NCBI GenBank assembly: GCA_028713125.1 | Contig: JAQTOU010000003.1 | Coordinates: 124,001-188,000, forward strand | DNA: 64,000 bases | Reading direction: 5' to 3' | Source: Elusimicrobiales bacterium | GTDB taxonomy: Bacteria; Elusimicrobiota; Elusimicrobia; Elusimicrobiales; UBA9959 | Shown here: positions 16,618-36,100 of the stretch, piece after piece | Position numbering within the stretch: position 1 is the stretch's first letter | Layout of the letters: every line of letters begins with the position of its first letter | The notes under the pieces: model-generated | The model's database searches: none | What the model was told of the DNA's origin: nothing | What the model saw: only the letters and a program-made list of their open reading frames with translations | Translations under genes and position numbers: made by a program

Positions 16618-17454
16618 ATGAACAGGACTACAGGGCAGAAGCCTGCCGAGGAAAATATCATGAAAATACTATTGGCATTGGTTTGCATCTTAACGACAGC
16701 GAGCGTTCGCGCGGAGCCGCAGCCCGCGGCCGCCCAGGCGGCGGACTGGAAATTCAGTACGTCGGTCAACTTCGACACCGGCAGGTACGGCTCCGAAGAC
16801 CGCACTAATTCAGTCTATATCCCGTTCACTCTTAAGCGCTATTTAACCAACGCGGACCTCTCCGTAACGGTCCCCTATTTGCGGCAAAGCTCTTCGGGGC
16901 AGGTTGCCTGGGTGGGCGGCAAGCCGGTGCGCGTTACAAAGGGAAGGGTGTCGGTCGCGACTTCCTCTAATTCGGGCCTCGGCGATATAATTTTGCACGG
17001 AACCTTCGGGCTGAAGCGGGATGGGCCGGGATCTTTCGACCTGGGGCTGGCCGGCAAGCTTAAACTGCCCACCGCCGACGAGAAAAAGGGCCTGGGCACA
17101 GGCAAGATGGATGTGGGAACCGGGCTTGAGTTCGCCAAGGAATTTTCCCCGGGGTGGACCCTGCTCGCCGACGGTTACTATACCATCATAGGCGAGCCCG
17201 CCGGCGTGAATTTCAATAACCAGGTCTCGCTGGACCTCGGCATTTACAGGCTGTTGAGCGAAAGGGTGAGTTTGACCGTCAGCTACGAGACCCAGAACAG
17301 CATAGTTTCCGGGAATCCGGGTCCCCGCAGCATCAGCGGCACGCTGGCGTACAATGTGCCGGACGGAGTTCAGCTCTTCGGCGGCGCGGCGCTCGGCCTG
17401 TCCGACGGCAGCCCGGAAATAGGCGTAAGCGGCGGTTTCAGCCAGAGATTTTAA
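16618..17454 (+). CDS. Outer-membrane beta-barrel (transporter/phenol meta-pathway-like), copy 1
   Basis: Signal peptide, alternating beta pattern, C-terminal Phe (GGFSQRF); strong paralogy to 18162-18968. Confidence 0.65.
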   Translation: MNRTTGQKPAEENIMKILLALVCILTTASVRAEPQPAAAQAADWKFSTSVNFDTGRYGSEDRTNSVYIPFTLKRYLTNADLSVTVPYLRQSSSGQVAWVGGKPVRVTKGRVSVATSSNSGLGDIILHGTFGLKRDGPGSFDLGLAGKLKLPTADEKKGLGTGKMDVGTGLEFAKEFSPGWTLLADGYYTIIGEPAGVNFNNQVSLDLGIYRLLSERVSLTVSYETQNSIVSGNPGPRSISGTLAYNVPDGVQLFGGAALGLSDGSPEIGVSGGFSQRF

Positions 17455-17489
17455 CGCAAAAGTTAAGCGCGGAAATATAAGGAGAAAAA

Positions 17490-18038
17490 ATGAAGAACAA
17501 TAAACTGCAGTTAATGCTCGCGGGGCTTTTCCTCTGCGCGGCGGCCATGCCCGCTTTCGCCGAGGAAAGGACCGGAGACGAAAAGAAGCTTGAGGCCGGC
17601 GCCGCCGTGCTGGATAAAGACGCCGCGAAGCCCGAAGGGGAGAAACCCGTGGCGGAGAAGATAAAGGCGGAGTTCAGCGTGGACGACGCCCGCGTGCAGA
17701 GCCTGCGCGACAAGAAGCTGGGCTATGGCGAGATCTCCATCGCGCTCGGCCTGGCCCAGGGCCTGCCCGGCGGGATCACCGACGCGAACGTCGACAAGAT
17801 AATGGCGCTTCGTCAGGGTCCGCCCGTCATGGGCTGGGGCAAGATCTCTAAAAGCCTCAACCTGAAACTCGGCCCGGTAGTAAGCAAAGTCCACAAAATG
17901 TCCGCCGATCCGAAAAAAGATAAAAAAGCGGAGAACGAAAAAGTAAAGAAAGGCGAAAAGATGGAGAAGCACGAAAAGATGGAGAAGCATGAAAAGATGG
18001 AGAAGCGCGAAAAGCCCGAGATGGGCGGCAAGCACTAA
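17490..18038 (+). CDS. Exported Lys/Glu-rich protein, copy 1
   Basis: Signal peptide; KLGYGEISIALGLAQGLPGG..RQGPPVMGWGKISKSLNLKLGPVVSKVHKMSAD shared with the 18999 gene. Confidence 0.7.
   Translation: MKNNKLQLMLAGLFLCAAAMPAFAEERTGDEKKLEAGAAVLDKDAAKPEGEKPVAEKIKAEFSVDDARVQSLRDKKLGYGEISIALGLAQGLPGGITDANVDKIMALRQGPPVMGWGKISKSLNLKLGPVVSKVHKMSADPKKDKKAENEKVKKGEKMEKHEKMEKHEKMEKREKPEMGGKH
17956..18009 (+). repeat. Three 18-bp tandem repeats (aaaagatggagaagcNNg) encoding EKMEKH-type repeats
   Basis: 17956-17973, 17974-17991, 17992-18009. Confidence 0.9.
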
Positions 18039-18059
18039 GTCCATAAGCGGAAAAATATA

Positions 18060-18102
18060 GGGACAGCGGCCGCCATTACAATGTAATTAAGGCCGCTGTC
18101 CC
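18060..18102. terminator. Hairpin GGGACAGCGGCC...GGCCGCTGTCCC with nested ATTACA-A-TGTAAT
   Basis: Perfect 12-bp outer stem and 6-bp inner inverted repeat; T-rich tract only on the minus side. Confidence 0.55.
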
Positions 18103-18161
18103 GTTTCCGGGGACTTCTTCGGCAGGAACAGCCGGGGTATAGCCTCGGATCAAGGACAACT

Positions 18162-18968
18162 ATGCGATTTTTTTTAAAGACGGCGGCGAAGCTATGCCGG
18201 GCGATTCCGGCCGCGCTCGCCTGCGCGGCGCTCCTGCTTCCGGCTGCCGTGGCGGAGGACTGGGAATTCAGTTCCACGGTCAACTATGATACCGGCAGAT
18301 ACGGCTCGAAGGACCGTGTTGAATCGGTCTATATTCCTCTTACCCTGAAGCTGAAATATTATGACGCTGATTTCGCAGTGACGGCGCCTTACCTGCGCCA
18401 GACCTCCAGGGGACAGGTAACACGCGTCGGCGGCAAGCCCGTACGCGTAAACACCGGGAACTCCGGCGGTGAAAATATCGCGGAGTCAGGTCCTGGGGAC
18501 ATGCTGCTAAGCGCCGCCTACACGCTCAAACTGGACGGCCCTCGGTCCTTCGACCTGGCGCTGGCCGGCAGGCTGAAGCTCCCGACCGCCAGCAAGAGCA
18601 AGGGCCTGGGCACAGGCGAAATGGACGAAGGAGCCGGGCTTGAATTCGCCAAAGAAGTCACTCCCGGCCTGACCCTGCTTTCAGACGGCTACTTCACCAT
18701 AATAGGGGATCCGGACGGCGTTGACTTCAACAATGAGGTGATGCTGGACGTCGGCTTTTACAGCCCGCTGAGTAAAAGTATCGGCCTTACCGTGCTTTAC
18801 GAAACCCGCAGCGCTATTCTGGACGGGAACGCGGACCCGCGCAGCGTAAGCGGGACTTTTTCTTATAGCATGCCGGGCGGCGCTCAATTCGCGGGCGGAA
18901 TTACGCTGGGGATGTCGGACGGAAGCCCCGACCTCGGGGCAGGCGCGGGTTTTATTAGCAGGTTCTAG
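18162..18968 (+). CDS. Outer-membrane beta-barrel, copy 2 (paralog of 16618-17454)
   Basis: DWEFSSTVNYDTGRYGSKDRVESVYIPLTLK..LKLPTASKSKGLGTGEMDEGAGLEFAKEVTPG matches copy 1. Confidence 0.65.
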   Translation: MRFFLKTAAKLCRAIPAALACAALLLPAAVAEDWEFSSTVNYDTGRYGSKDRVESVYIPLTLKLKYYDADFAVTAPYLRQTSRGQVTRVGGKPVRVNTGNSGGENIAESGPGDMLLSAAYTLKLDGPRSFDLALAGRLKLPTASKSKGLGTGEMDEGAGLEFAKEVTPGLTLLSDGYFTIIGDPDGVDFNNEVMLDVGFYSPLSKSIGLTVLYETRSAILDGNADPRSVSGTFSYSMPGGAQFAGGITLGMSDGSPDLGAGAGFISRF

Positions 18969-18998
18969 CCGGTTCCGGCGAAGGTAAAAGGAGAATAT

Positions 18999-19583
18999 AT
19001 GAAAAACCTGAAACTGCATTTTATGCTTACGGGTTTAATTTTGTGCCTGGCAGCCGCTTCCTCTTTCGCCCAGGAAAAACCAGGGGAAGAAAAAAAGCTG
19101 GAGGCCGTTGCCGCCGAGCTGGATAAAAACCATTCCGAGGGGCAGCAGCGCGTGGCCGACATGATAAAGGCGGAATTCGGGGTTGCCGACGGCCTGATAA
19201 TGGGCCTCCGTTTCAAAAAGCTGGGTTACGGCGAGATAGCCATAGCGCTAGGCCTGGCCCAGGGCCTGCACCGCACCATCAAGGACGAAGACCTGTATAA
19301 AATAGTCTCACTGCGCCAGGGGCCGCCGGTCATGGGCTGGGGGAGGATAGCTAAAGAGCTCGGCCTGAAGCTCGGCCCGGTTATAAGCAAGGTCCAGAAG
19401 ATATCGGCAGAGGTCCGCAGGGATGAAAAGGGCGATAAAGCCGCGGAAGATAAAAAAACTGAAGCCGAAAAGCTAAAGAAGCAGGAGAAGGCGGACAAGT
19501 CCGAAAAAACCGATAAGGACGGAAAAGCGTGGGAGCAGAAAAAATCCTGGATGGAACGGATGAAATCTTTTATGAGGCGGTAA
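18999..19583 (+). CDS. Exported Lys/Glu-rich protein, copy 2 (paralog of 17490-18038)
   Basis: FKKLGYGEIAIALGLAQGLHRTI..LRQGPPVMGWGRIAKELGLKLGPVISKVQKISAE. Confidence 0.7.
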   Translation: MKNLKLHFMLTGLILCLAAASSFAQEKPGEEKKLEAVAAELDKNHSEGQQRVADMIKAEFGVADGLIMGLRFKKLGYGEIAIALGLAQGLHRTIKDEDLYKIVSLRQGPPVMGWGRIAKELGLKLGPVISKVQKISAEVRRDEKGDKAAEDKKTEAEKLKKQEKADKSEKTDKDGKAWEQKKSWMERMKSFMRR

Positions 19584-19586
19584 TAT

Positions 19587-21254
19587 ATGGGGAGAGCTTT
19601 TCGCGCGGCGCTGTTCGCCCTGCTGTTATCTCCTGCCGCCGCGGCGCAAGGCGAAGCTCCGGCGGCTGAGCCGCAGCGCCTTTCCGCGTTCGGCGAAAGC
19701 GAACTGCGCGGGCTCCTGGCCTCGGGGAGCCTGGATATCCTGCAGCGGCCAAAGTTCGGCGAGTACCAGTCCGAGCTCGGGGATTTCTACAATTCCACCG
19801 GCTATGCGCTTACCTGGATCACGGGATCCCGGGCGACCGCGAAGGCCCGCGCCGTCATAAAGCGGCTGGAGGCGGCCGACAATGAAGGTTTGCTTGCGCA
19901 GGACTACGACAGCCCGTTGTGGGCCGGGCGCCTCGCGGAACTGGGAAGTTCAGGCGACGCTTCGGACTCCGAACTTCTCCGTTTCGACCTGGCCCTTACT
20001 GTCTGCGCGATGCGCTATATCCTGGACCTGAGGCTGGGCCGCATCAATCCCCAGCCTTTCCACTCCACTTTCGAATTAGAGCCGGATATACGCGGCCCTT
20101 CGGACCTCCTCAGGAAACGGATCCTGTCCGCGGCGGATGTGGAAGCGGCTTTCCGGTCCGTGGAGCCGGCATTTCCCTCCTACCGCCGGCTTGTCAAGGC
20201 CGTGCAGCGCTACAAAGAGCTGGCCGCCCGGGATGACGGGGAACAGCTTCCGGTTCCTGAAACCCCGGTCAGGCCCGGGGACGCCTATCCGGGCATACCC
20301 CGGCTTACGCGGCTGCTTAAGCTGGTGGGCGACCTTCCGCGCCGCGCCGCTTCCAGTCCGAGGCGCTATACGGGGGCTCTTGCGAAAGCCGTGAAGCGTT
20401 TTCAGCGCCGTCACGGGCTGCCGCCTGACGGTTTTCTCGGCGCCCAGACCATTGTCCAGCTCAATACGCCGCTGGCCCTGCGCCTGCGCCAGCTTCAGCT
20501 TACCCTTGAGCGGTGGCGCTGGCTGCCCCACCGCTTCTCCAGGCCCCCCATCCTCGTCAATATCCCGGAATTCCGCCTTTACGCCGGCAATGCGCCGTCG
20601 CAGAAAGTGGTGGTAGGCATGGCTTTCGAGCATGAAACCCCGGTCTTCGCGAGCCAGCTGACCGAGGTGGTATTCCGTCCTCCGTGGACCGTGCCCATGA
20701 GCATCCAGCTTGCGGAAATGGTTCCGAAACTGGAAAAGAACGCCGCCTACCTGGCGGAAAACGACATCGATGTTATAGACGGCAGGGACGCCATAGTCAG
20801 CACCGGGGCGGTCAGCGCGGAGGTCCTGTCCCGGCTCAAGGACGGCAAGTTGTATCTTAGGCAAAGGCCGGGCCCCCATAATTCGCTCGGCCTGGTAAAG
20901 TTCTTCATGCCCAACTCCCACAGCGTCTACCTTCACGGCACGCCCTCAAGGAGGGGCTTCTGGGAATCGGAGCGGGATTTGAGCCACGGCTGCATCCGGG
21001 TGGAAGATCCCGGCGCGCTGGCGGCCTGGGTGCTGCGCGACGAGCCCGGCTGGACTCCTGAACGCATCCGTGCGGCGATGGAGGGGCCCGAAACTTTGAC
21101 GGTAAAACTAGCCGAACCCGTCAGCGTGCTTCTCCAGTACGGGACGGCGGCGGTCAAGGAGGGGGGCGAAGTGCGTTTTTTTGAGGATATCTACGGCCGC
21201 GACGCGGCGGAAGGCAAGGCTTTCGAAGAGCGGGCGAGGCTCGCGGCCCGGTAG
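19587..21254 (+). CDS. L,D-transpeptidase (YcbB/LdtD type) with peptidoglycan-binding domain
   Basis: LAKAVKRFQRRHGLPPDGFLGAQTIVQLN (PG binding); HGTPSRRGFWESERDLSHGCIRVEDP (YkuD catalytic motif). Confidence 0.9.
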   Translation: MGRAFRAALFALLLSPAAAAQGEAPAAEPQRLSAFGESELRGLLASGSLDILQRPKFGEYQSELGDFYNSTGYALTWITGSRATAKARAVIKRLEAADNEGLLAQDYDSPLWAGRLAELGSSGDASDSELLRFDLALTVCAMRYILDLRLGRINPQPFHSTFELEPDIRGPSDLLRKRILSAADVEAAFRSVEPAFPSYRRLVKAVQRYKELAARDDGEQLPVPETPVRPGDAYPGIPRLTRLLKLVGDLPRRAASSPRRYTGALAKAVKRFQRRHGLPPDGFLGAQTIVQLNTPLALRLRQLQLTLERWRWLPHRFSRPPILVNIPEFRLYAGNAPSQKVVVGMAFEHETPVFASQLTEVVFRPPWTVPMSIQLAEMVPKLEKNAAYLAENDIDVIDGRDAIVSTGAVSAEVLSRLKDGKLYLRQRPGPHNSLGLVKFFMPNSHSVYLHGTPSRRGFWESERDLSHGCIRVEDPGALAAWVLRDEPGWTPERIRAAMEGPETLTVKLAEPVSVLLQYGTAAVKEGGEVRFFEDIYGRDAAEGKAFEERARLAAR

Positions 21255-21258
21255 CGGA

Positions 21259-21774
21259 TCACCAGCGTCTAACGCGGCCTACGTCCACGTGTACGAAATC
21301 GGAGCCGTGATAGTAGCCTACTCCGCCGCGCCTTAGGGCGAGGGCGGTGTCGCGAAGGCGGGAGGTGCTCACGCCCGGCAGGCGGATGTCGATAGCCTCG
21401 GCTTTCATATGCAGGCTGTTGCCGCCTACCCCGGAACTGCGGCTCCGGAGCTGTTTATTGGTCTTCGGGGTGCGGTAGCCGCAGATGATATTTATCTCGC
21501 CCGCCGGCCGCCCTACTTTGTCCGTAAGTTCGGTCAGGAGGTCGAAGAGCCGCGGATCGTAGTGCCTGACGCTGCCCACCCGCCAGTCGCGCAGGAACAG
21601 GTCCAGCTTCGCCAGCGCCTCACGGTCGTAGACGCCGTCCCGGCTGTAGACCACGTCGATGCGCTCCAGGGTATGGGTATTGAACATCCGCAAACGGCAG
21701 ACGCGCTGCGCCGGCAGCGATCCGTAAGCGAAAGTGAAAGGTACGAAGAGAGCAGCCAGGATCAGGTGTCTCAT
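21259..21774 (-). CDS. DUF882/YcbK (MepK)-like M15 peptidase
   Basis: INIICGYRTPKTNKQLRSRSSGVGGNSLHMKAEAIDIRLPG..GGVGYYHGSDFVHVDVGRVRRW. Confidence 0.85.
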   Translation of the reverse strand: MRHLILAALFVPFTFAYGSLPAQRVCRLRMFNTHTLERIDVVYSRDGVYDREALAKLDLFLRDWRVGSVRHYDPRLFDLLTELTDKVGRPAGEINIICGYRTPKTNKQLRSRSSGVGGNSLHMKAEAIDIRLPGVSTSRLRDTALALRRGGVGYYHGSDFVHVDVGRVRRW

Positions 21775-21818: not shown

Positions 21819-22949
21819 CTATTGGACTTTAGCTCCCTTTTCAGCAAGGTCCTTCCATAGTTTGTTCTCCAGCTCCACGGATTTTTCCAGGTTGTCATGG
21901 GCCTGCTGGATAAGGGCGTTAAGCTTTACCGTATCTATCGCCGCCCCGCCTGTTTTAGCTCCGGCCGAGTTCATGAAGAACACAAGCTCCTTGACCGAGG
22001 CGTTGAGGGAATCCGCGCCTTCGCTGAAGTCCAGCGCCGCGTTATAAACGCCGCGCTCGAGCTCGGCGGCCTTGGACGGCTTTTTAAGCAGGATCCAGGG
22101 CTGCCAGCGGACCTGCCGGGTAAGAGATTTAAGATTTGCGGAAGCTTTCTCCCCGTTGGCGATGGTGCGGCCGAGCGGGTCGCGGTTCTTGATCACGAAC
22201 TTGTCCAAATTATCTCCCGCCCGCGCCAGGGACTCGGAGGCTGAGTGGATTTTTATTACGGTGTCGTTGATGCTGTCCCTGTTGCCGGAGATGGCGGCGT
22301 TCATCGAGCCCGAGAACTGTTCCAGATTCTTTACGCCGTCGATGATGCCCCGCTCCGCGGCCGGGATGGACCTGTTAAGGGAGGCCATCACCGATTTGGC
22401 TAGGGCGCTGGTCTCCTTGAGGTTCGTAACGGCCGCGTGCGCCGCTCCTACCGTCTCCTTGTCGGCCAGTGCGGCGATAAAATCATCTATGCGCCGGACC
22501 ACGCTTCCGGCTTTTTTCGCCAGTTCCGTGATCGGGACCGGGTTGTCCCCGGTTATTTTATCTCCGGGCGCGAAGTTCTCGGCGGCGCGCCCCGGCATGA
22601 CCGTGAGCATAGAAATGCCTGTCAGCGAGCGGTCCACGGCTACGCTGGTATCCTTCGGGAACGCCTCCGCGTATATTACCCTGGCCGTGACCTCCACCCC
22701 GGCCGCGCGGCGGCCGGCCTCGTCCGTGAAATGAACCGCTTCTATGCCCGTTACCTTTCCCAGTTCCATGCCCATTACCTGGACGGGGTCTTCCACCTTC
22801 AGCCCCTGAATATCGGTGAACAGGATGCGCAGCGTCTGCTTCTTTTTGAACAGGGAGCCCCAGTTCCCGGTGGCGACCAGGATCACGCCCGCCATGAACA
22901 GCGCTGCCAGGATGACCGCTCCGGCTTTTATTTCAGATCGTGTTTTCAT
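21819..22949 (-). CDS. mlaD: MlaD-family (MCE) lipid-transport substrate-binding protein
   Basis: TM anchor then FTDIQGLKVEDPVQVMGMELGKVTGIE MCE domain. Confidence 0.88.
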   Translation of the reverse strand: MKTRSEIKAGAVILAALFMAGVILVATGNWGSLFKKKQTLRILFTDIQGLKVEDPVQVMGMELGKVTGIEAVHFTDEAGRRAAGVEVTARVIYAEAFPKDTSVAVDRSLTGISMLTVMPGRAAENFAPGDKITGDNPVPITELAKKAGSVVRRIDDFIAALADKETVGAAHAAVTNLKETSALAKSVMASLNRSIPAAERGIIDGVKNLEQFSGSMNAAISGNRDSINDTVIKIHSASESLARAGDNLDKFVIKNRDPLGRTIANGEKASANLKSLTRQVRWQPWILLKKPSKAAELERGVYNAALDFSEGADSLNASVKELVFFMNSAGAKTGGAAIDTVKLNALIQQAHDNLEKSVELENKLWKDLAEKGAKVQ

Positions 22950-22957
22950 ATTCTCTC

Positions 22958-23779
22958 CTAAAATCTCTCGATGAACGGCTCAAGCAGGTCCTCGGCGTAA
23001 TCTTTTCTCGATACACGCAGCGGTATAGGCCCGTCGGCAAGGCCGTTGATGAACTGCTGCACCAGCGGGTCGGCGGAAGAGCGTATTTCGGCGGGTGTTC
23101 CCACGGCCACCGCCCGGCCCTTGAAAAGCAAGATCATCCGGTGGGCGATCTTGAAAGCGCTGCCCATATCGTGGGTCACCACTATCGAGGTCACCCCGGT
23201 TTTTTTATTCAGGTCCATCATCAGCTCGTCTATCATCGCGCTTGCGACAGGGTCTAGCCCCGCCGAGGGCTCGTCGTAGAACATTATCTGCGGGTCCAGG
23301 GCCATCGCGCGCGCCAGGCCCACGCGCTTTTTCATGCCGCCGCTTATCTCGGAGGGCTTGAGGTGCTCGAAGTCCCGCAGGCCGACCATCTCCAGCTTCA
23401 TCTTGACCATGATCCCGATCACGTCGGCGGAAAGCTTAGTGTGTTCCTTGAGCGGCAGGGCTATGTTCTCCCCGACCGTCATCGAGTTGAAGAGCGCGCC
23501 CGACTGAAAAAGGATGCCGGTTTTTTTGCGCAGCTCGTCCAGCCCCTCTTCGTCCAGCCGTGTCAGGTCCGTGCCCAGCATTTCGATGCTGCCGGAGGTA
23601 GGGCGCATAGCGCCGATCAGCAGGCGCAGCAGGGTGGATTTGCCGCAGCCGCTGCCGCCCATGATGACCAGGATCTCGCCTTTATTGACGTGGAAGTTCA
23701 GGTCTTCGAGAACCAGCTGGTCGCCGAACCGTTTTACCAGGTTCCTTACTAAGATAGGCTTCTTTAGTTCTTCGCTCAT
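22958..23779 (-). CDS. mlaF: MlaF-like ABC ATPase
   Basis: Walker A GGSGCGKSTLLRLL; EISGGMKKRVGLARAMALDPQIMFYDEPSAGLDPV. Confidence 0.92.
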   Translation of the reverse strand: MSEELKKPILVRNLVKRFGDQLVLEDLNFHVNKGEILVIMGGSGCGKSTLLRLLIGAMRPTSGSIEMLGTDLTRLDEEGLDELRKKTGILFQSGALFNSMTVGENIALPLKEHTKLSADVIGIMVKMKLEMVGLRDFEHLKPSEISGGMKKRVGLARAMALDPQIMFYDEPSAGLDPVASAMIDELMMDLNKKTGVTSIVVTHDMGSAFKIAHRMILLFKGRAVAVGTPAEIRSSADPLVQQFINGLADGPIPLRVSRKDYAEDLLEPFIERF

Positions 23780-23783
23780 AAAT

Positions 23784-24590
23784 TTAGCGGCCCAGGAGTA
23801 TCCGGAATACCGCGGCGAACACGCAATCCGCGGAGATGATCATGACGATAGAGTACACCACGGAGCGGGTGGCCGCCTTGCCGACGCCTTCCGCGCCGGA
23901 GTCGACCCGCAGGCCCTCAAAACAGGCGATGAGGGCGATCAGGATGGCGAAAACCCAGCTCTTAAAGATCCCGACGACCACGTCGGAGGTGACCAGCGTT
24001 TCCAGCATCTTCTGGATGAAGAGGTCCGGGGAGATATGAAGGACGGTCCAGGCGATGCCCATCCCTCCCAGTACGCCTACAAAGTCCCCTACCATGGTAA
24101 CGCATGGTATCATCAGCGCCGCCGCGATGAGCCGCGGGACCACCAGGTAGCGGACCGGGGAGATAGCGAGGGCACGCAGCGCCTCTATCTCCTCGCTGAC
24201 GGCCATCGTGCCCAGCTCGGCCGACATCGCCGCGCCCGCGTATCCGGCCATGACCATGGCGGTCATAAGCGGCCCGAGCTCACGGAAGATCCCCAGCCCT
24301 ACCACGCTGCCCACGTATTCCTTGATGCCGAAGGTTTTAAGAAGGTTGGCCAGCTGCAGGGCGATCACCACGCCGATAAACAGCTGTACGAGGCAGACTA
24401 TCCCCAGGCTGGCGAAGCCGACGCGCACCATCTGCTCCAGGACCGGCTCGCCACGGACCCGGAGTTTGCGCCCGGTGAAAGGGGCGATAAAAATGAAATA
24501 CAGGGCGTCGGCGAGCAGCCAGGCCAGCCCACCTATATAGCGGAGCCCGGTATAGAACCGCGCGCCGATCTCTCCCGCTGCGTTTTCCAT
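23784..24590 (-). CDS. mlaE: MlaE-like ABC permease
   Basis: ELGPLMTAMVMAGYAGAAMSAELGTMAVSEEIEALRALAISPVRYLVVPRLIA. Confidence 0.92.
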   Translation of the reverse strand: MENAAGEIGARFYTGLRYIGGLAWLLADALYFIFIAPFTGRKLRVRGEPVLEQMVRVGFASLGIVCLVQLFIGVVIALQLANLLKTFGIKEYVGSVVGLGIFRELGPLMTAMVMAGYAGAAMSAELGTMAVSEEIEALRALAISPVRYLVVPRLIAAALMIPCVTMVGDFVGVLGGMGIAWTVLHISPDLFIQKMLETLVTSDVVVGIFKSWVFAILIALIACFEGLRVDSGAEGVGKAATRSVVYSIVMIISADCVFAAVFRILLGR

Positions 24591-24594
24591 GCCT

Positions 24595-24939
24595 TTATAC
24601 TCCCAGCGCTTCCTGCCGCGTGGCCGCGAGACTGAAAAATTTATCCAGCCTGGCCAGGGCGAAGACGTCCTTTACCTTATCGATCATGCCGGCCAGGACC
24701 AGCGCTACGCCCGCCGCTTTGGCCAGCTTCATCGCCTCTACCAAAGTGGCGACGCCCGAACTGTCTATGAAGGTGACCCCCGCGAGGTCCACGACCACGG
24801 CGGCCGGCCTGTAGCCGATGGAGTCGGCCAGCGCCTTGCGCAGCCTGGGCGACTCGTGCATGTCCACTTCGCCGTCGGCGGTTATCACGACCGTGCGGCC
24901 CGGGGCCCCGTCTTCTACGATCTCGGTTCTTATCTGCAT
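24595..24939 (-). CDS. STAS-domain protein (anti-anti-sigma / MlaB-like)
   Basis: VVVDLAGVTFIDSSGVATLVEAMKLAKAAGVALVLAGM; directly upstream of mlaE. Confidence 0.85.
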   Translation of the reverse strand: MQIRTEIVEDGAPGRTVVITADGEVDMHESPRLRKALADSIGYRPAAVVVDLAGVTFIDSSGVATLVEAMKLAKAAGVALVLAGMIDKVKDVFALARLDKFFSLAATRQEALGV

Positions 24940-26595
24940 TTATTTATTTCCTTTTCCGCGCACCAGCATATGTAGCTCGTTCCCGTCCCAGAGCTTGTCG
25001 TCGAATTCCACCACGTCCATGACCTCGCGGATATAGCGGACGCCGAGCCCGCCCGGGCGGATGTCGGCGAGGTCGCGCGAGACGAAGCGGCCGGGGTCCT
25101 GCCTGTCGCCCCAATCGCGGATATGGACAGAGAACTGGTCCGGGGACCGCCCCACTCCTATGCGGATCTTCTCGTCGGGGTTCATGCGGTAGGTATGCTT
25201 TATTATGTTGGACACGGCCTCGGTAAGCGCCAGCAAGATGGCGCCGGTGTTCCTGTCGTCGAAACCGTGGGCCAGCGCCAGTTTTTCCACGAACTTCCTG
25301 GCCTGGGCCAGGGACTTGGTTTCCGATGAAAAAGTCCGTTCCTCGTAATCCCCGTACCCTACGCCCACCACAGTGATATCGTCGGCCAGGGCCTGCCCTT
25401 CCGTAAAACGGCTGATGGCCTTCATAAGCCGCGGCACCGCCAGCTCCGGGCAGTCGGCCAGGATCTCATTCACCTTCTCCGGGCCGAGGCGGGCGCCGGA
25501 CGGCGATTTCGCATCCCAGACCCCGTCGGTCATAAAAACTATGCGTTCCCCAGTGGCAAGCGTGAGCCTGGTGCTCTTATATGTTATGTCCTCCATGATC
25601 CCTAGCGGGGGGTTATCGGAAGCGCCGGCCAGGCGGCAGGCGCCTGCGGCGGGGCCTACTATGATGGGAGGGAGATGCCCCGCGTTCACGAACTCCACCG
25701 ATCCGGAGGCCGGGTCTATCACCGCGTAAACGGCGGTGATGAAGATCCCCCGTTTCGAACGCTTTGTGACTATGGCGTTCAGGCGGTTAAACAGCGCTCC
25801 GCCTTCGGGGTCGGCTTGCGCGAGATATTCGAAATCGGCCGAGAATTTGGCGCCGAAGAGCGCCGCAGGCACGCCTTTGCCCGAGACGTCCGCCACCAGC
25901 ACGGCCAGCCTGCCGTCGGGCAGCCGGGTGATGTCGACCACGTCGCCCGCCACGTAGCGGCAGGCCAGGCTGCGGCATTCGACGCGCAGGTTCCGTATGG
26001 AAGGGATGTCGGAGGGCAGGGAGGCGCTCTGGATCTCCTCCGCGATCCGCATATCGTGCTGAAGGCGGTCCTGTTGGAGCGCTTTGCCGTGCAGCAGGGA
26101 GTTGTCTATGGCGATGGCGGCGACGCCGCAATACCGGGTAAAGAGCACCTGGTCTCCGGGAGTAAAAGCGGCCCCGTCCTTCTTGTTGATGACCTGGGCC
26201 ACGCCGATCAGTTGCTCCTTCGCGAAAAGCGGTACGCAAATCACGCTTTTTGTGTGAAAGCCCGTCTTCTTGTCTAAACCGGGAAAAAACCTCGGGTCCT
26301 TGTAGGCGTCTTCCACCAGGAGGGGCCTGAGATTTTTGGCCACCCAGCCGGAGAGGCCGACCCCTGCCTTAAGTCGCGTCTGCTCCATGATGCGCGGCCC
26401 GGCTTCGCCCAGGGCGACCTCATAGACCAGCTCGCCGGTGGCCGCGTCCAGCAGCATGATATTTGAGGCCTCGGCTTTCAGGGCGGCTCCGGCCTTGTTA
26501 AGCACCTCGGTCAGGACGGCTTTAAGGTCCAGCGTCGAGGTCAGTAAGGCATAAACATCAAGCAGCTTTTCTAGGTCTTTGGTCTTGCATGCCAT
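24940..26595 (-). CDS. GAF-SpoIIE (PP2C) phosphatase fused to RsbW-like HATPase
   Basis: GAF region (TGFHTKSVICVPLF); VAGDVVDITRLPDGRLAVLVADVSGKGVPAAL; C-terminal LLALTEAVSNIIKHTYR..GLGVRYIREVMDVVEF; start MACKTKDLEK at 26595 preferred over 26682. Confidence 0.87.
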   Translation of the reverse strand: MACKTKDLEKLLDVYALLTSTLDLKAVLTEVLNKAGAALKAEASNIMLLDAATGELVYEVALGEAGPRIMEQTRLKAGVGLSGWVAKNLRPLLVEDAYKDPRFFPGLDKKTGFHTKSVICVPLFAKEQLIGVAQVINKKDGAAFTPGDQVLFTRYCGVAAIAIDNSLLHGKALQQDRLQHDMRIAEEIQSASLPSDIPSIRNLRVECRSLACRYVAGDVVDITRLPDGRLAVLVADVSGKGVPAALFGAKFSADFEYLAQADPEGGALFNRLNAIVTKRSKRGIFITAVYAVIDPASGSVEFVNAGHLPPIIVGPAAGACRLAGASDNPPLGIMEDITYKSTRLTLATGERIVFMTDGVWDAKSPSGARLGPEKVNEILADCPELAVPRLMKAISRFTEGQALADDITVVGVGYGDYEERTFSSETKSLAQARKFVEKLALAHGFDDRNTGAILLALTEAVSNIIKHTYRMNPDEKIRIGVGRSPDQFSVHIRDWGDRQDPGRFVSRDLADIRPGGLGVRYIREVMDVVEFDDKLWDGNELHMLVRGKGNK

Positions 26596-26629: not shown

Positions 26630-27346
26630 CTAATAGTGTTCGGCGGGGGGGCGCCCCGTGTCCTCGCTCTGGGTGCTCCCATCCGCCGGGACCACTTCTT
26701 CCAGCTTGCCTTTGTCCAGGACCGTGCCGACCATATGGATGAGGTGTTTTGCCGTTTTCACTGTCTCAGCCAGGCGGCCGGCTGAATCGGCGGATATCGC
26801 CGTTTTTTCTTTTTCTTTAATAAGTTCGAGCTGGCCGCAGATGCTGGCGAGGGGCGGGCGAAGATCGTGTAAGAGCAGGTTCACCAGGTTGTCGCGCATT
26901 TTTTTCAGCTCGCCCAGTTCGTTATAGTTCTCCTGCAGCCGGTTTTTCTGGCGGCGCATTTCGAGGTGGGTTTCAACGCGCGCCTCCACTTCCTCGAACT
27001 GGAACGGCTTGGTGATGTAGTCCACGCCGCCGGTGCCGAAGGCCTTTACCTTGTCTATTGTTTCGGTGAGGGCGCTCAGGAAAATTACGGGGATATCTTT
27101 AAGCTTTTCGTCGGCTTTAAGTTCGGTGCAGACTTCATAGCCGTTCATTTCCGGCATGTTAATATCCAGCAGGATAAGGTCGGGCGGGTCGTTGCGGGCG
27201 GCCTGCAGCGCCATTTTCCCGCTTACGGCGGCGCGCACTTTGTAGCCGCGCCCTTTCAGCATCCCGGAGAGCAGCTCGAGGTTCGCGGGCGTATCGTCCA
27301 CCATAAGGATGGCCGGGGGTTTTTTTGAGCTTATCGGATCCGTCAT
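26630..27346 (-). CDS. REC-HisKA-like protein lacking HATPase domain
   Basis: REC (LMVDDTPANLELLSGML..LILLDINMPEMNG) and LLHDLRPPLASICGQLELI, then stops; start MTDPISSKK at 27346. Confidence 0.78.
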   Translation of the reverse strand: MTDPISSKKPPAILMVDDTPANLELLSGMLKGRGYKVRAAVSGKMALQAARNDPPDLILLDINMPEMNGYEVCTELKADEKLKDIPVIFLSALTETIDKVKAFGTGGVDYITKPFQFEEVEARVETHLEMRRQKNRLQENYNELGELKKMRDNLVNLLLHDLRPPLASICGQLELIKEKEKTAISADSAGRLAETVKTAKHLIHMVGTVLDKGKLEEVVPADGSTQSEDTGRPPAEHY

Positions 27347-27452
27347 AGCTGTTTCCTTCGCGGCGGGTGAGGTGACTTCCACCCATAAAGCGGCCCGGAC
27401 AGCACCGCCTGCGCCCACACTTATATGATACCCTCCGGCGCCCATGGCCGCT

Positions 27453-27539: not shown

Positions 27540-28676
27540 TTATTGCAACCCGGCGCCCTTCACCGGCAGCTCGAACCAGAAGGTGCTTCCCTTTCCCTCT
27601 TCGCTTTCCACGCCGATACTGCCGCCATGAGCCTCCACCGCCAGCTTGCAGAAGGTCAGGCCGAGGCCCGGAGAATATCTCTGGTTGCCGGCCCGGAGCT
27701 CTTTCTGGGCGAACTTGTCGAAAATTTTCTGCTTATACGCGTGGTCGATGCCCAGCCCGCTGTCTTTTACGCTGACGCGCACCCTGTCTCCCTCGGGCGC
27801 GACGCTAAGCAGTATCTGGTCGCCGTCCCGCGTGAACTTCAGCGCGTTGGACAGCAGGTTCTGGATGACCCTGAGGATGATCTCCCGGTCCGCAAGCACA
27901 ATAGCGGGCTGTGCCGCGGGGGTAAGGCGGATGTCGCGCTTCCCGGAAAGCGGCTTAACTCCGGATATCGCGTCTTCCAGGACCCGGTTCAGATCGCATT
28001 CCGCGGTCTTGAGTTTCATCCGCCCCTCTTCCATGCTGCTGGTCTCCAGGACGTCGCAGGCCATCTGGATCATCTGCATTACCGCCCTCATTGCCTCGGC
28101 GACATAGCCGGAGTGGGCAGCCGAGAGCGTATTATCCGCATTGTCCCTGATGAGCTTAAGATAGGCGAAGGTTCCAGTCAGCGGGGAACGCAGGTCGTGG
28201 ATGATCATCTGCACCAGGGAAGCGCGCAGTTCCTCAAGCTCGCGGAGCTTGTCGTAGGCCTCCTGCAGCCGCCGTTTCTGGCGGCGCAGTTCCAGGTGAG
28301 TCTCCACGCGCGCTTCTACTTCTTCCATCTGGAACGGCTTGGTGATGTAGTCCACGCCGCCGGCCCCGAAGGCCTTCACTTTATCCATCGTTTCGTTGAG
28401 GGCGCTCAGGAAAATAACCGGTATATCCTGAAGGTCCGGATCGGCCTTCAGCTTCTCGCAGACCTCGTAGCCGTTCATGCCGGGCATATTGATGTCCAGG
28501 AGTATAAGGTCCGGCGGGTTGTTGCGGATGGCCTGCAGCGCAAGCTTGCCGCTAAGGGCGGCGCGCACTTTATAGCCGCGCCCCTTGAGCATCCCGGAGA
28601 GCAGTTCCAGGTTCTCCGGCACATCGTCTACCATGAGAATTGCCGATTGATTCTCGGCGTGAATTGGCTCTTTCAT
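27540..28676 (-). CDS. REC-HisKA-HATPase histidine kinase
   Basis: LMVDDVPENLELLSGMLKG; IIHDLRSPLTGTFAYL; LLSNALKFTRDG; GLGLTFCKLAVEAHGG. Confidence 0.9.
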   Translation of the reverse strand: MKEPIHAENQSAILMVDDVPENLELLSGMLKGRGYKVRAALSGKLALQAIRNNPPDLILLDINMPGMNGYEVCEKLKADPDLQDIPVIFLSALNETMDKVKAFGAGGVDYITKPFQMEEVEARVETHLELRRQKRRLQEAYDKLRELEELRASLVQMIIHDLRSPLTGTFAYLKLIRDNADNTLSAAHSGYVAEAMRAVMQMIQMACDVLETSSMEEGRMKLKTAECDLNRVLEDAISGVKPLSGKRDIRLTPAAQPAIVLADREIILRVIQNLLSNALKFTRDGDQILLSVAPEGDRVRVSVKDSGLGIDHAYKQKIFDKFAQKELRAGNQRYSPGLGLTFCKLAVEAHGGSIGVESEEGKGSTFWFELPVKGAGLQ

Positions 28677-28716: not shown

Positions 28717-30111
28717 TCATGGCTGGGTCCTGCTGGTCGCTTTAGGGCCTAAAACCTGGTAAATGTGCACGGTTTCCTTGCGCCCCCTGACCGGCTTCTC
28801 GCCTATATCCTTGAATTCAAAATGCTCTTTGGTCGCCGCGTAAACGGGCTGGCTCACTATCAGGTCGGTGCCGTACTCTTTGTTGCCCGCTTCCATCCGG
28901 GAGGTAACGTTGACCGCGTCGCCGATAACCGTATATTGGACCTTCTCCTGGCTCCCGATATTTCCAGCCACCGCCTTGCCCGAATGTATGGCGATGCCGA
29001 TCGCGATCGGCTTGCGGCCTTCCTTGACGAGGATCTCGTTGAGAACCAGAAGGCGGGCCTTCATGTCCAGGGCCGCGCTGACGGCCAGCTTCTCGTGGTC
29101 CCGTGTGTAAACGGGCCAGCCGAAAACCGCCAGGATGGCGTCCCCTATGAACTTGTCCACCGTTCCGCTGTGCGCGCCGATCGAATGCACCATTTCGGTG
29201 AAATAGCGGTTCAAAAGGTTAACCACTTCCTGCGGCGGCAGTTTTTCGGAAAACTCCGTGAACCCGCGGATGTCGGACATCAGCACCGTCATTTCCTTCA
29301 GCTCGCCGCCGCCGAGTTCCATGGAGACTTTGCCGTTCAGGAAGCCGTCCACCACTTCTTTGGACATATAGCGCCCGAACGTGCTGCGGATCATTTCTTT
29401 TTCGCGCAGGCTGAGGACCATCTGGTTGAAGGCCTGCGTCAGCTGCCCTATTTCATCCGTACTGGAAAAGCCGATCTGCATGTCCAGGCGGCCCTCGCCG
29501 ACGGCCCGCGCCGCCTTCGCCAGCACGGGCAGCGGCCGCAGCATCCACCCGACTATGAGGATCGTGCCCAGCATGTCCAGTATGACCGCGAAACCGGCTA
29601 CCAGCAGCACCTGCCTCTTCGCGTCCTTAAGGCTGCTCGCCACGGAAGCCCTGGTGGAGCCGATATGCACGGTCCCCGTCCGGCGGTTGCCGGAAAATAC
29701 CGGTGCAGAAATATCGAAATAGGAAACTCCGCGGCTGGAATACTGCTGGACGAGCGCCTCCTTCGATCTCGAGGCTATCAGGGCGATCGGGCTGTCGTCG
29801 ATGCTTCCTATCTTCCGCGGATCCGTATGCGACAGGACCTTGCGGCCGGCGTCCAGGATCCCGGCATACTCCACCCCCTTTTCCTTCAGCATTTCATGAG
29901 TATTGAAATGAAGGGTAAAGGTGTCGAGCTGGGGGGAGATGGCCTCTCCCGCCGAGCGGGCGTAGGCGATGGACCTCAGCTTCATCTCCGCGGTCATCAG
30001 CTGCTCGCCCTGCTGCAGCAGGATCCAGGTCATGGCCGCGATGAGCGCCAGGACGAAGAGCGAGGCGAATAAGGACAGCTTTAACGCGATCTTGTTTATT
30101 TTCTGTAGCAT
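28717..30111 (-). CDS. Membrane-bound class III adenylate/guanylate cyclase with HAMP
   Basis: Two TM segments, HAMP, then VLMSDIRGFTEFSE..GTVDKFIGDAILAVFG..VQYTVIGDAVNVTSRME. Confidence 0.9.
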   Translation of the reverse strand: MLQKINKIALKLSLFASLFVLALIAAMTWILLQQGEQLMTAEMKLRSIAYARSAGEAISPQLDTFTLHFNTHEMLKEKGVEYAGILDAGRKVLSHTDPRKIGSIDDSPIALIASRSKEALVQQYSSRGVSYFDISAPVFSGNRRTGTVHIGSTRASVASSLKDAKRQVLLVAGFAVILDMLGTILIVGWMLRPLPVLAKAARAVGEGRLDMQIGFSSTDEIGQLTQAFNQMVLSLREKEMIRSTFGRYMSKEVVDGFLNGKVSMELGGGELKEMTVLMSDIRGFTEFSEKLPPQEVVNLLNRYFTEMVHSIGAHSGTVDKFIGDAILAVFGWPVYTRDHEKLAVSAALDMKARLLVLNEILVKEGRKPIAIGIAIHSGKAVAGNIGSQEKVQYTVIGDAVNVTSRMEAGNKEYGTDLIVSQPVYAATKEHFEFKDIGEKPVRGRKETVHIYQVLGPKATSRTQP

Positions 30112-30115
30112 AAGT

Positions 30116-33100
30116 TCAATAAAGTACCGCTAATTTGAATTGCTGCCTTTCAGTTTTGCCGGCATATTTCTTTTCTATGACGCACACGTAGCCGCCCGGC
30201 GCGGCGATCTTTCCCATGCCGTTTCGTCCCGTCCAGGGCCAGACCTTGTTGCCCGCCGAAGTTTCGGCGAGCGTCTTTTCATATACCAGGTCCCCCTCCA
30301 GGGTAAATAATTTCAAAGTCACTTTCGCCGGGGCTTTCAGATAAAAACCAAGCTGGGTCGGCCCGGCCATCGGATCGAACGGGTTGGGCCAGTTATAAGG
30401 CTGGACCATGGGGGACTCCTGGTTAAGGGACCAGACGGGGATGCCCGGCCCCTGATCCGAATAATCACTGATCCCCCCGGCATTGTTTTCCGCGCGCACC
30501 CGGGAGAAAACGGTCTTGCCGCTCGGCAGCCCGGTCTCCAGCGAGGAGAGGTTAAGGCCCATATTCTTGGCGCTTAAGAGGTCATTGCCGTTGAGAGCCG
30601 TCCCCAGGTCAAGCAGATAGGCTTTTACCCCGCTCTCCTGGTCGGCGGAGGCGGACCAGGAGAACAGCGCGGCGGAATCGTAGGAGTATTCGCGGTCCGC
30701 CTGCACGGCCCCGAGGCGGTCGGGCGCGGTCCGGTCCACCAGCACGCCGGGACTTGAGACGGGAGAGTATTGGCTCACGATCCCGCCTTCGTCGATGGCT
30801 TTGACCTTCAGGTAATAGGTCTTGCCGTTGGCCGCGGGGTCCAGGGTGAAGCTCGCCAGCGGACCGATCTCCGAATCGACGAGGACGTTGAAGTCCGCGG
30901 GCGTGGTGCCGACGGACACTACGTAGGTGGAAATAGCGGTGTCGCCGAAGGCCAGGGCGGGCGGCCAGTTCCAGGTGATCCCCGAAGTTGCGGTGAAGGC
31001 GCCGGGCACCGGGACGGGCTGGCCCGGCGGGATCACCGTGCTTAAGGCTACGTGAAAGGGCCCGACTTCGGCCGTCTTGTAGCCGAGCGCCTGGGAATTG
31101 TAGCTGCGCAGGTGGAGGAACCAGAAGCCGTTGCCCGTGGCGGTGGTCGTCAGGATCTCCAGGGCGCTCCAGCCCTGTTCCTGGTCGTTCCAGGCGTGGG
31201 TGGCGTTCCTGTCCCAGATAGCGCGGTAGAAGAGCAGGCCGCCCGTCCCGGTGGAGACCGTGTTTACGAAACTGAAGGTAGTTACGCTGACCGGGCCCGT
31301 TGTGGTGCTGGCCGAGACGGCGGGCGCGGCCGCGTAGGTCAGCTGGCCGCCGAGCTCCAGGCCGGAGGTAGGTATTCCGTTGTAGTTGCGCGCGCTCACG
31401 CGGGCGTAGTAAGTCGTGTTCGCCGCCAGCGCGAAGTTCGCGCTCACCCCCGCGGCGGCGGCACTTGCCCACAGGAGCGCGAAGTCGGGTCGCGTGGAGA
31501 TCTCCGCCTCGTACATCGTACCGGAGGGGTTGTCGCCCGCCGACCAGTTGACGGCCAGGCCGTTGTCTCTCAATGTGAAGGAAGATGGGGAGGATTGGGG
31601 GGGCATGGCCAGGGTCGCGGTGGAGATTATGGGGCTGGAATAGGGGCCGGCATTTCCGGCAAAATTGACTGCTTTAACCCTGGCTGTGTAGGTTGTGTTC
31701 GGAGTCAGCCCCGTGAAGGCGGCCGGGATGCTCAGGGTGGTAGAGGAGAATGAAACGCTCACGAAGTTGTCTTTTGAGATCTCGGCCACATAAGCAGTGT
31801 TCTGCGGGTTGCCGTTGGCCGTCCAGCCGAACTCAAGTCCCGAACTGGTCACCGCGCCGAAAGGCGCGGCGGCAAGGGCGGGCGACAGGGGCAAGGTGAC
31901 CTCTGTAACTACCTGCGAGTAGCCGCCAGGAACATTGTTCATATTCACGGCTCTGGCGCGGGCGTAGTAGGTAGTGTTGGGGAGCAGCCCGCCGAAGGTC
32001 TGGCTGAGGGCCAGGGTCGAGGCCGAGGAGATCGCCGCGCCGGGAGCGAAGCCCGCGCTCGACAGCTCGACGGTGTAGGAGGTCCCGCCGGGATTGCCGC
32101 CGGAAGCCCAGGTGAAGGTGAGGGTGCTGGCCGAGACCGCGGTGAACGGCTGGGCCGCATTCAGCGGGTCGGTGGCCAGGGTGGCCGTAGAGCGTATAGG
32201 GCTGGAGTAGGGACCGTCCACCCCGAGGAAATTAATCGCCTTTACGCGCGCCTGGTAGACGGTATTTGCCGCCAGGACGGAGAAAACCGCGCTGTTTGAC
32301 AGCGTGGCGGCGGAAGCGAGCATGGTGTCGAAATTGTTCCCGGAGAGCTCGGCCGCGTAGCGCGTGCCGGGCGGGTTCCCGCCGCCGCTCCAGTTGAAGG
32401 TAAAGCTGTTAGTGCTTATGGCCGTGAAAGGCCCGGCGGAAATAGCGGGGGGCAAGGTATAGGTAACAGTGGAGACCGCGCCTGTGTAGGGGGTGTAATC
32501 GCCGCCGGCCCCGACGGCGCGGACATGCGCGTAATAGGTGGTGTTGGCCGCGAGGCCCGTGAGAACGTAATTCAGATTGGTCGTGACGTCTGAAGAGACC
32601 GGGGCAGAGAAGCCGACGTTGGTGGAGAACTCCAGGTTGTAGCCGGTACCGGCGGCATTACCGCCGTCGCCCCAGGCGAAGGTAAGCCCTCCGGCGGAGA
32701 GGTTCAGAAAAGGCGCCGCGACGTTGACCGGCGCCGAGCCGGCGGTGGCGGTGGAAACTATGGGCGAGGAAAACTGGCCGGGGATGCCGGCGAAGTTGAC
32801 GGCCCGGACCCGCGCCTGGTATACGGTGTTGGCCGTAAGCGCGGAGAACGACGCGCTCGTAAAGCTGGTCCGGGCGGCGCTGGACACGCTGATAAACCCG
32901 TCTTTAGAGATCTCCGCCGTGTAGAGCGTCCCCGCCGGGTTTCCGCCGTTCTCCCAGCTGAAAGTGAAGCTGCCGGCAAAGACTCCCGTGAACGGCGGGG
33001 CGGCGGTAAACAGGGGCAGCGTGAGCGTTACGGTTGAAACCGCGGGGCTGGAATAGGGGCTTGCCAGCCCGCCGGTTCCGAGGGCGCGGACCCGGGCGTA

Positions 33101-36100
33101 ATAAGTGGCGTTGACCGACAGGCCCGTGAAAACGTAATTGAGGTTGACGGTAAAGTACGAAGAAACGGGGGCCGAGAAGGCGCTGTTCGTGGAGATCTCC
33201 GTATTGTAGTTCGTGCCGGGGGGATTGCCGCCGTCTTCCCAGGCGAAGGTTAGGCCGTCGGCCGATACGTTAGGGAAAGGCGCGGCGGCGTTGCCCGGCG
33301 CCGAACTGGCGGTGACGGTGGAAACTATCGGCGAGGAATACTGGCTCGGGACGCCGGCGAAGTTAAAGGCCCGGACCCGCGCCTGGTATACCGTGTTGGG
33401 AGAAAGCGCGGAGTAGGATGCGCTCAGGGAGGTGGTCTGTACCGCGCTGGAGACGCTTACAAAACCGTTCCCGGACAGCTCGGCTGCATACACGGTGTTC
33501 TGCGGATTGCCGCCGCCCGTCCAGCTGAACGTAATGCCAGAACTGTTTACCCCGCTGAAAGGCGCGGCAGGCAGGGCGGGCGGGAGCGTTAAAGTGACCG
33601 CCGCTTCGGCAGGAGAGTAACTGCCGGGCACATTATCCATGTTCACGGCCCTGGCGCGGCCGTAGTAGGTAGTATTAGGCAGCAGGCCGCTGAAAGTATG
33701 GCTGAGGGCAAGGGTCGAGGCCGAGGAGATAGCCGTGCCGGGCAGGAAACCGGAGCTTGACAGCTCTACGGTGTAGGCGGTTCCGCCGGGATTGCCGCCG
33801 TCGGCCCAGGTGAACGTAGCGGTGCCGGCCGAGACCGCGGTGAAAGGCTGGGCCGAATTTAACGGGTCGCTGGCCAGGGTGGCCGTAGAGCGTATCGGGC
33901 CGGAGTAGGGACCGTTCGCGCCCAGGAAGTTGATGGCCCTTATGCGGGCCTGGTAGACGGTATTGGGCGTCAGCCCGGAGAAGGCCGCGCTGGTCGACAG
34001 CGTGGAAGCCGAAGCGATAAGAGCATCGAAGCCGTTTTTGGAGAGCTCGGCCGCATAAAGCGTGCCGGGCGGATTGCCGCCCTCGCTCCAGCTTAAGGTC
34101 AAGGTATTGGTGCTGACGCCCGTAAAAGGCGAGGCCGTTATGACAGGGGCCAAAGTGTAGGTGACCGTGGAGACGGTGCCTGTAAAGGCGGTGAGGTTGC
34201 CTCCTACCCCGACGGCCCGTACATGGGCATAATGGGTGGTGTTGGCCGGGAGCCCGGCGAAAAGGTAATTAAGATTAGTCGTGAAGCCGGAAGAGACGGG
34301 AACCGAGAAATCGCTGCTGGTGGATATTTCCGGGTTGTAGCTGGTTCCAGGGGCATTGCCGCCGCCCCCCCAGGAGAAGGTAAGGCCCTCGGCGGAAAGA
34401 TTCGTGAAGGGCACAGCGGCGTTGACCGCCGCTGAAATAGCCGTGGCGGTGGAAACTATAGGAGAGGAAAACTGGCCCGGTATGCCGGCGAAGTTCACGG
34501 CCCGCACCCGCGCCTGGTATACCGTGTTAGCTTCGAGCGCCGGGAAGTCCGCGCTGAGCGCGCTGGTCTGTACCGCGCTGGACACGCTGACGAAACCGTC
34601 TTTGGAGATCTCCGCGGCGTAGAGCGTCCCTCCGGGATTCCCCCCGTTCTCCCAGCTGAAAGCGAAGCTGCCGGCGAAGACCCCCGTGAAGGGAGGGGAA
34701 GCGGTAACGGGTGGCAGCGTCAGCGTCGCCGTGGACACCGCGGGGCTGGAATAAAGGCTTGCCAGCCCGCCGGCCCCGAGGGCGCGGACGCGGGCGTAAT
34801 AAGTGGTGTTGACCGACAGGCCAGTGAAAATAAAATTAAGGTTGGTGGTGACTGCCGAAGACACGGGAGCCGAAAAGCCGCTGCTGGTGGAGAGCTCGGG
34901 ATTGTAATTCGTTCCCGCGCTGTTGCCGCCTGACTCCCAATTGAAGGTTAAGGCGCCGGCCGAGAGGTTTATAAACTGGACCGAAGCGTTCAGCGGGGGC
35001 GCTGTGTTTGTAATGGTAGTGACGGCGGCGGTGAAAGCAGTATCCAGGCCGTTATGGTTTTGAGCTTTGACGCGGGCATAGTACAGGGTATTCATTGCCA
35101 GGCCGGTGAAGCCGGCGCCGGCATTGAGGGTGCTTGAGGACCGGGCCAGCGAGGCGAAGTTGTCGGTGGAGATCTCGGCGATATAGCGGGTCTGCGGCGG
35201 GTTGCTGCCGCCGTTCCAGCTGAAATTAAAACCGGTAGAGCTGACGCCCGCAAGCGAGGGATCGGCGGGTTCAGCTGCCAGGGTCGCTGTGTAGGTAATG
35301 GAGGTAAACTCCGTAGGCAAACCGGCTATATTGATGGCCCGTACCCTGAAATAATACGTGGTATTGGGCGCCAGGCCCGCCGGGGCCGAGGAGAGGGACG
35401 TGATATATGAAGCGGAGACGTTGCCCCCGAAATTAATATCGGTGGAGCGGTTCACCTCGTAAATGGTGTAGCCCGGATTAGCGGGCTCACCCGCGCTCCA
35501 GTTCAGGCTTAAAGAATAGGCGGCCAATGCGGTGAAGGTGCTTGTGGCCGCGCCCGGCAGGCCCGCCAGGGTGTAGGTGGAAACCGGGGCTGAAGGAAGG
35601 CTGTCCGAGTGGTCCGTGAAAGCCGTTATATAGCGGGTGTAAGCGGTGTTAGGCAGCAGGCCGGTCTCCGTGGCCGAGAGAGTATCGCTGGAGGTTGCAA
35701 GCTGGGGTAAGCGGTCCTGGGTGCGATAGCTTACGGTCCCGCTGTACAGCCTGTACTTCCTTGAAGCTTCGGCCGCGTCTCCCCAATCAGGGGCGACCGT
35801 CCAGCGCCATGTGATGGAGGTCGCGAAGATATCCTGGAATTCCAGGCCGGCGGGGGGGGAAGCTACCGTGGCGAAAGAGACCGCGCCAATGAAACCGGCT
35901 TGGGCGTGAGGGCTGCCTTCGCTGCCGCTGCCGGATTTAGCTCCTTTAGAGCCGCCCGCCGTGCTGATGGCTACCGAGAAGGCCGCCTGCCTGTAGTAGA
36001 TCTTAACCCGTCCGCCGCCCCCGCCTCCACCGGGATAGGCCGTATCCCCGGACCCCCCGGCGGCGTCCCCGCCCTTGCCGCCATTGGCGTTGATGACGCC

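Follow-up and report, generated by a model that had tools for sequence, protein, structure and literature searches.

Partner switching is a form of regulation in which one STAS-domain protein has two competing partners and a phosphate decides between them. The switches of Bacillus subtilis, RsbU-RsbW-RsbV and SpoIIE-SpoIIAB-SpoIIAA, combine a PP2C phosphatase, a HATPase kinase and a STAS protein with a DS(S/T)G site and have a sigma factor as output, and in Mycobacterium tuberculosis Rv1364c the PP2C and RsbW-type domains occur in one chain, which also carries its own STAS domain; to our knowledge Rv1364c has no Mla link. In Vibrio fischeri a single protein, SypE, acts as serine kinase and phosphatase on the stand-alone STAS protein SypA, which controls biofilm formation; the papers on this pair name no target of SypA and tie no transporter genes to it (PMC4517449, PMC8256260). 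In Escherichia coli a short STAS protein of 97 amino acids, MlaB, belongs to the phospholipid ATP-binding cassette (ABC) transporter MlaFEDB; its regulation by phosphorylation of Thr52 was proposed in 2016 and 2020, with no kinase named (PMC5016091, PMC7367683). A literature search, with subscription papers mostly outside its scope, retrieved neither a kinase for MlaB nor a description of a partner switch with ABC-transporter output. This article describes a five-gene cassette of an Elusimicrobiales bacterium (contig JAQTOU010000003.1; the 64,000-nucleotide stretch analysed is called the window) in which a SpoIIE-HATPase gene and a STAS gene precede the transporter genes mlaE, mlaF and mlaD. 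The individual parts are known; the combination is new.

The genes lie on the minus strand in the order SpoIIE/STAS/MlaE/MlaF/MlaD, with intergenic gaps of 0, 4, 4 and 8 bp:

24940..26595, minus strand: GAF-SpoIIE(PP2C)-HATPase_c_2 gene, 551 amino acids, predicted bifunctional phosphatase/kinase (domains by Pfam)
24595..24939, minus strand: STAS gene, 114 amino acids, RsbV/SpoIIAA-like, proposed subunit in the MlaB position
23784..24590, minus strand: MlaE permease gene, 268 amino acids, Pfam MlaE 7e-74
22958..23779, minus strand: MlaF ATPase gene, 273 amino acids
21819..22949, minus strand: MlaD/MCE gene, 376 amino acids, Pfam MlaD 1e-7 (modest; the other domain assignments are strong)

The last base of the SpoIIE stop codon (TAA) is 24940 and the first base of the STAS start codon (ATG) is 24939; an alternative ATG for the SpoIIE gene is found at 26682, and the start at 26595 is the one common to relatives. 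A preliminary description made from the sequence alone had given these positions, the gene order, the abutting of the first two genes and the lack of a sigma factor near the operon, all of which were borne out. MlaE, MlaF and MlaD are encoded together, as an MlaFEDB-type transporter requires. With E. coli MlaFEDB the cassette shares the STAS gene in the MlaEFD operon, three residues of MlaF (Tyr261/Leu265/Leu266) and a Ser/Thr at the position of MlaB Thr52, and differs in gene order, in MlaD length and in its linked kinase and phosphatase, which the E. coli operon does not have. The B. subtilis switches provide the best sequence and fold matches for the signaling part; where their output is a sigma factor, the cassette has MlaEFD. 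The nearest functional parallel is SypE/SypA of V. fischeri.

The reading favored here, with a probability of about 0.72, is that the cassette forms a self-contained partner switch acting on the Mla phospholipid ABC transporter and not on a sigma factor. What was observed is that the domains and motifs are intact, that the genes keep their order and are conserved and inherited together, and that MlaF has the residues which dock on MlaB. The Mla pump is thus probably switched by phosphorylation of its STAS subunit, an idea already suggested in the preliminary description and supported by the sequence comparisons given below.

The STAS protein (Pfam STAS 1.5e-21) contains the motif FIDSSGVA, as had been noted before, and the first serine of this motif is Ser60, which aligns with the first serine of the SpoIIAA DSSG:

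24760..24762, minus strand: Ser60 codon, predicted phosphosite, at the position of SpoIIAA Ser58 and E. coli MlaB Thr52 in alignments

The protein passes the anti-anti-sigma superfamily model TIGR00377 (73.8 bits, cut-off 53.45) and scores 28.9 bits with NF033618, the equivalog model for MlaB, short of its cut-off of 90; E. coli MlaB scores 127 with it. Since MlaBs are diverse, those of E. coli and Acinetobacter baumannii being <20% identical (PMC7367683), and the NF033618 score is below the cut-off, the STAS is described as MlaB-like in its working and not as an MlaB equivalog. The fold was predicted with a mean predicted local distance difference test (pLDDT) of 92.8, and a Foldseek search with this model returned RsbV of RsbV/RsbW (6m36) and SpoIIAA of SpoIIAA/SpoIIAB (1th8) at the top, E. 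coli MlaB being matched as well. The cassette STAS also has a longer C-terminus than E. coli MlaB. The gene itself sits inside the MlaEFD operon, as the gene for an MlaB would; judged by sequence and predicted fold, its product is an RsbV-type protein occupying the MlaB position.

The kinase/phosphatase protein scores 4e-43 for SpoIIE, 3e-21 for HATPase_c_2 and 7e-15 for GAF in Pfam, and in the PDB it has a sequence match to 3ke6 (M. tuberculosis Rv1364c). Its domains are as follows:

26107..26529, minus strand: GAF domain, best PDB matches cyclic-nucleotide GAFs (PDE2A, CyaB2)
25363..25920, minus strand: SpoIIE/PP2C phosphatase domain with AGDVVDI, ADVSGKG, TDG and ADD motifs
24967..25332, minus strand: RsbW/SpoIIAB-type HATPase kinase domain with N box TEAVSNIIKH and G2 box RPGGLG

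The N and G boxes of the kinase and the metal-binding Asp motifs of the PP2C domain are intact, and the GAF domain carries an NKx(5)FxxxDQ-like motif.

MlaF provides the link from the STAS protein to the transporter. In the E. coli MlaFB structure a C-terminal extension of MlaF places Tyr261, Leu265 and Leu266 at the interface with MlaB (PMC7367683), and the window MlaF ends in a comparable extension:

22961..23041, minus strand: MlaF C-terminal extension, GLADGPIPLRVSRKDYAEDLL..., with Tyr261, Leu265 and Leu266

These residues have numbers identical to those of E. coli MlaF. The motif D[YF]xxDLL occurs in 8/8 cassette MlaFs and in 0/34 intact MlaFs that Elusimicrobiota relatives encode at MlaE loci with no STAS, counts that come from related genomes and are not independent; in Planctomycetota the strict motif was found in 9 of 12 MlaFs beside a STAS gene and in 1 of 14 controls. 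Because MlaF keeps the E. coli-type extension, it is taken as the second partner of the STAS protein, which, from these residues, should bind at the MlaB docking site. The preliminary description had named two findings that would speak against its interpretation: an RsbV-type STAS lacking an interface for MlaF, and a separate MlaB encoded at another locus. An RsbV-like STAS is indeed present, but MlaF keeps the docking extension residue for residue, and no other stand-alone STAS occurs in the genome.

In the mechanism proposed, for which binding, phosphorylation, mutual exclusion and sign of effect are inferred, unphosphorylated STAS would sit on the MlaF ATPase in place of MlaB. The HATPase domain would bind the same helical face of STAS and phosphorylate Ser60, and the phosphate would release STAS or disable it on MlaF, so that transport stops. 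A signal reaching the GAF domain, or an adjacent receiver protein, would lead the SpoIIE domain to remove the phosphate and restore the STAS-MlaF complex. Phosphorylation is expected to weaken the STAS-MlaF contact in the way that the substitution T52E in E. coli MlaB lowers MlaF binding (PMC7367683).

The remainder of the genome (an assembly of 3.48 Mb scored 100% complete) contains few candidates for other pairings. Three STAS domains occur genome-wide, that of the cassette and the tails of two SulP permeases. At locus L003 a single chain combines SulP permease, STAS and a cyclic-nucleotide-binding domain. A genome-wide search for a second MlaB or RsbW found none, nor any other convincing RsbW-like kinase: HATPase_c_2 gives one strong match (78.6 bits, in the cassette), one at 30.1 bits just above the Pfam cut-off, and others below it, the weaker matches lying in larger proteins presumed to be histidine kinases, which were not examined individually. 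The sigma factors comprise RpoD, one RpoS-like group 2 factor and seven extracytoplasmic function factors, and none of the SigB, SigF or SigG type was found genome-wide. With the sole stand-alone STAS, the sole strong HATPase_c_2 and no SigB/SigF sigma factor, the two proteins are each other's only obvious partners of these kinds.

Conservation was examined in Elusimicrobiota and Planctomycetota, plus five proteobacterial plasmid loci. By STAS profile search this type of STAS occurs in 8 of the 238 genomes searched in the class, seven of them from the genus and one from another family, and in all eight the full five-gene cassette is present. The cassette thus spans two families and has at least two kinds of flanks, which is the outcome of the neighborhood comparison that the preliminary description had called for. 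This conservation, together with the Planctomycetota loci, rules out chance adjacency of the five genes. Pairwise distances among the five genes correlate at 0.93-0.98, and ratios of nonsynonymous to synonymous substitution (dN/dS) of about 0.05-0.4 denote purifying selection on all of them. The N, G1 and G2 boxes of the kinase, the PP2C metal-site motifs and DSSG are invariant or nearly so, the catalytic motifs of the SpoIIE-HATPase protein being kept across 7 aligned cassettes; the eighth (L059, genome G002) was excluded from this alignment. In L059 (9190-10746) the PP2C domain is short by about 33 residues, a real loss or an assembly error. The cassette of L057 (genome G024) is relocated and has different flanks, including genes for Omp85 and TamB, another envelope transport system. 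A STAS-MlaE fusion was considered for two related Elusimicrobiota loci (L064, L065) and rejected: an N-terminal extension of MlaE is present there, but it has no STAS by Pfam.

Planctomycetota were sampled (250 genomes searched) since one MlaE relative fell in a metagenome-assembled genome of Phycisphaerales; the loci were ordered by how closely their MlaE resembles that of the cassette, and the rates hold for that MlaE branch and not for the phylum. STAS adjoins MlaE in 27 of the 30 best loci. Among top loci retrieved with wide flanks, STAS is present in 20/20 and an RsbW-like kinase gene stands directly upstream of it in 19/20, while among lower-ranked MlaE loci both are present in 4/19. The planctomycete kinase is a separate RsbW-like gene, in the order HATPase-STAS-MlaE, and 31/31 kinase-STAS pairs from both phyla keep DSSG in the STAS as well as Glu and Asn in the N box of the kinase. 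At the five proteobacterial plasmid MlaE loci, whose gene tables are incomplete, no separate STAS or kinase gene is annotated beside mlaE. It is possible, as a tentative reading short of even odds, that these loci form a two-phylum class of Mla transporters with a phospho-switched, removable STAS and its own kinase, of which E. coli-type MlaB would be a simplified descendant or a parallel with no linked kinase.

Several observations weigh against the proposed control of the Mla transporter. The STAS protein has an extra fifth strand and a C-terminal helix, as SpoIIAA has, and E. coli MlaB has neither; structure prediction for the SpoIIE protein gave a model too poor for use (pLDDT 56); the cassette is absent from most congeners; and in Planctomycetota only 2 of the loci examined have an adjacent PP2C gene and several have no adjacent mlaF. 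Moreover, E. coli MlaB with the substitution T52A remains bound although ATPase activity is lost (PMC5016091); this makes the sign of the switch uncertain, and the site is perhaps no simple on/off contact. In the planctomycete loci L140, L142-L146 and L151 MlaD comes directly after kinase, STAS and MlaE, and the stretch shows no mlaF; either the ATPase has been lost there or it has to be supplied from elsewhere.

Given that the STAS passes TIGR00377 and folds like RsbV/SpoIIAA, and that other sigma factors exist in the genome, the locus could be an ordinary RsbU-RsbW-RsbV module: the HATPase would act as anti-sigma factor and STAS as its antagonist, and the Mla genes would merely be co-transcribed or belong to the regulon. 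This is unlikely: the genome, despite its completeness, encodes no sigma factor of the fitting type, the neighbor is specifically MlaE in two phyla, the MlaF extension tracks STAS, and the cassette STAS lie closer to Mla-linked planctomycete STAS than do the six sampled non-Mla Elusimicrobiota STAS (88/71, weak support, since long ends and few supported branches mark both the STAS and the HATPase tree). It is slightly less probable again that STAS is a constitutive MlaB-like subunit, in keeping with MlaB of E. coli, which functions although no kinase is known for it (PMC7367683), and that the SpoIIE-HATPase protein is a leftover or has some other target. Against this, no alternative stand-alone STAS substrate for that protein is encoded in the genome, its kinase and phosphatase motifs are under purifying selection, and the kinase adjoins STAS in 31 loci of two phyla.

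A partner switch may in principle be read from either end, and receiver/HisKA proteins lie directly upstream in most congeners; MlaF occupancy could then sequester STAS and report the state of the transporter to the kinase/phosphatase and on to the receiver proteins. This reverse flow seems very improbable, as no output factor is known and receiver neighbors are missing upstream of the relocated cassette (L057) and that of the other family (L094). If control of the transporter by its STAS subunit holds true, partner switching would reach beyond transcription and control an ABC transporter directly, and outer-membrane lipid traffic would be linked to cytoplasmic signals. For the hypothesized phosphorylation of MlaB, candidates for the kinase, the phosphatase, the substrate and the target are encoded as neighbors at this locus, and with the kinase-substrate pairing kept in Planctomycetota the question may be reduced to short biochemistry.

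Genes upstream of the cassette include possible inputs:

26630..27445, minus strand: REC-HisKA protein that lacks a HATPase domain; 34 bp separate its gene from the kinase/phosphatase gene downstream, and it is retained next to the cassette in most congeners
27540-28676, minus strand: second REC-HisKA protein, upstream
28717-30111, minus strand: sCache-HAMP-class III adenylate/guanylate cyclase, also next to the L054 and L059 cassettes

The first REC-HisKA protein is a possible input to the switch. A cyclic nucleotide is another possible input, as a lead only, because the GAF domain resembles cyclic-nucleotide GAFs and only 2.1 kb lie between the end of the upstream cyclase gene and the start of the SpoIIE gene. 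Stress, to which the preliminary description had linked the transporter, would be a hypothetical input.

A second mlaE, of a type present in nearly all relatives, lies on another contig; the MlaF of this locus has 254 amino acids, with no extension, and no STAS gene is nearby. MlaC is encoded in one copy on another contig and a search of the genome for MlaA gave no match; both are sparsely distributed among diderms (PMC10665443). At the second Mla locus (L063, 5861-7165) the C-terminal part of MlaD resembles, by eye only, an outer-membrane barrel as in Veillonella. The operon is flanked by an M15-type peptidase gene (DUF882) at 21259-21774 on the minus strand and a YkuD L,D-transpeptidase gene at 19587-21254 on the plus strand, both staying with it in most congeners. 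Next to these, 16618-19583 (plus strand) holds a tandem duplicate of a two-gene unit, encoding a Phenol_MetA_deg-like protein and a Lys/Glu-rich protein with no Pfam match, and on the other side a gene for a 2235-amino-acid protein of many repeated domains (30116-36823, minus strand) adjoins the cyclase gene.

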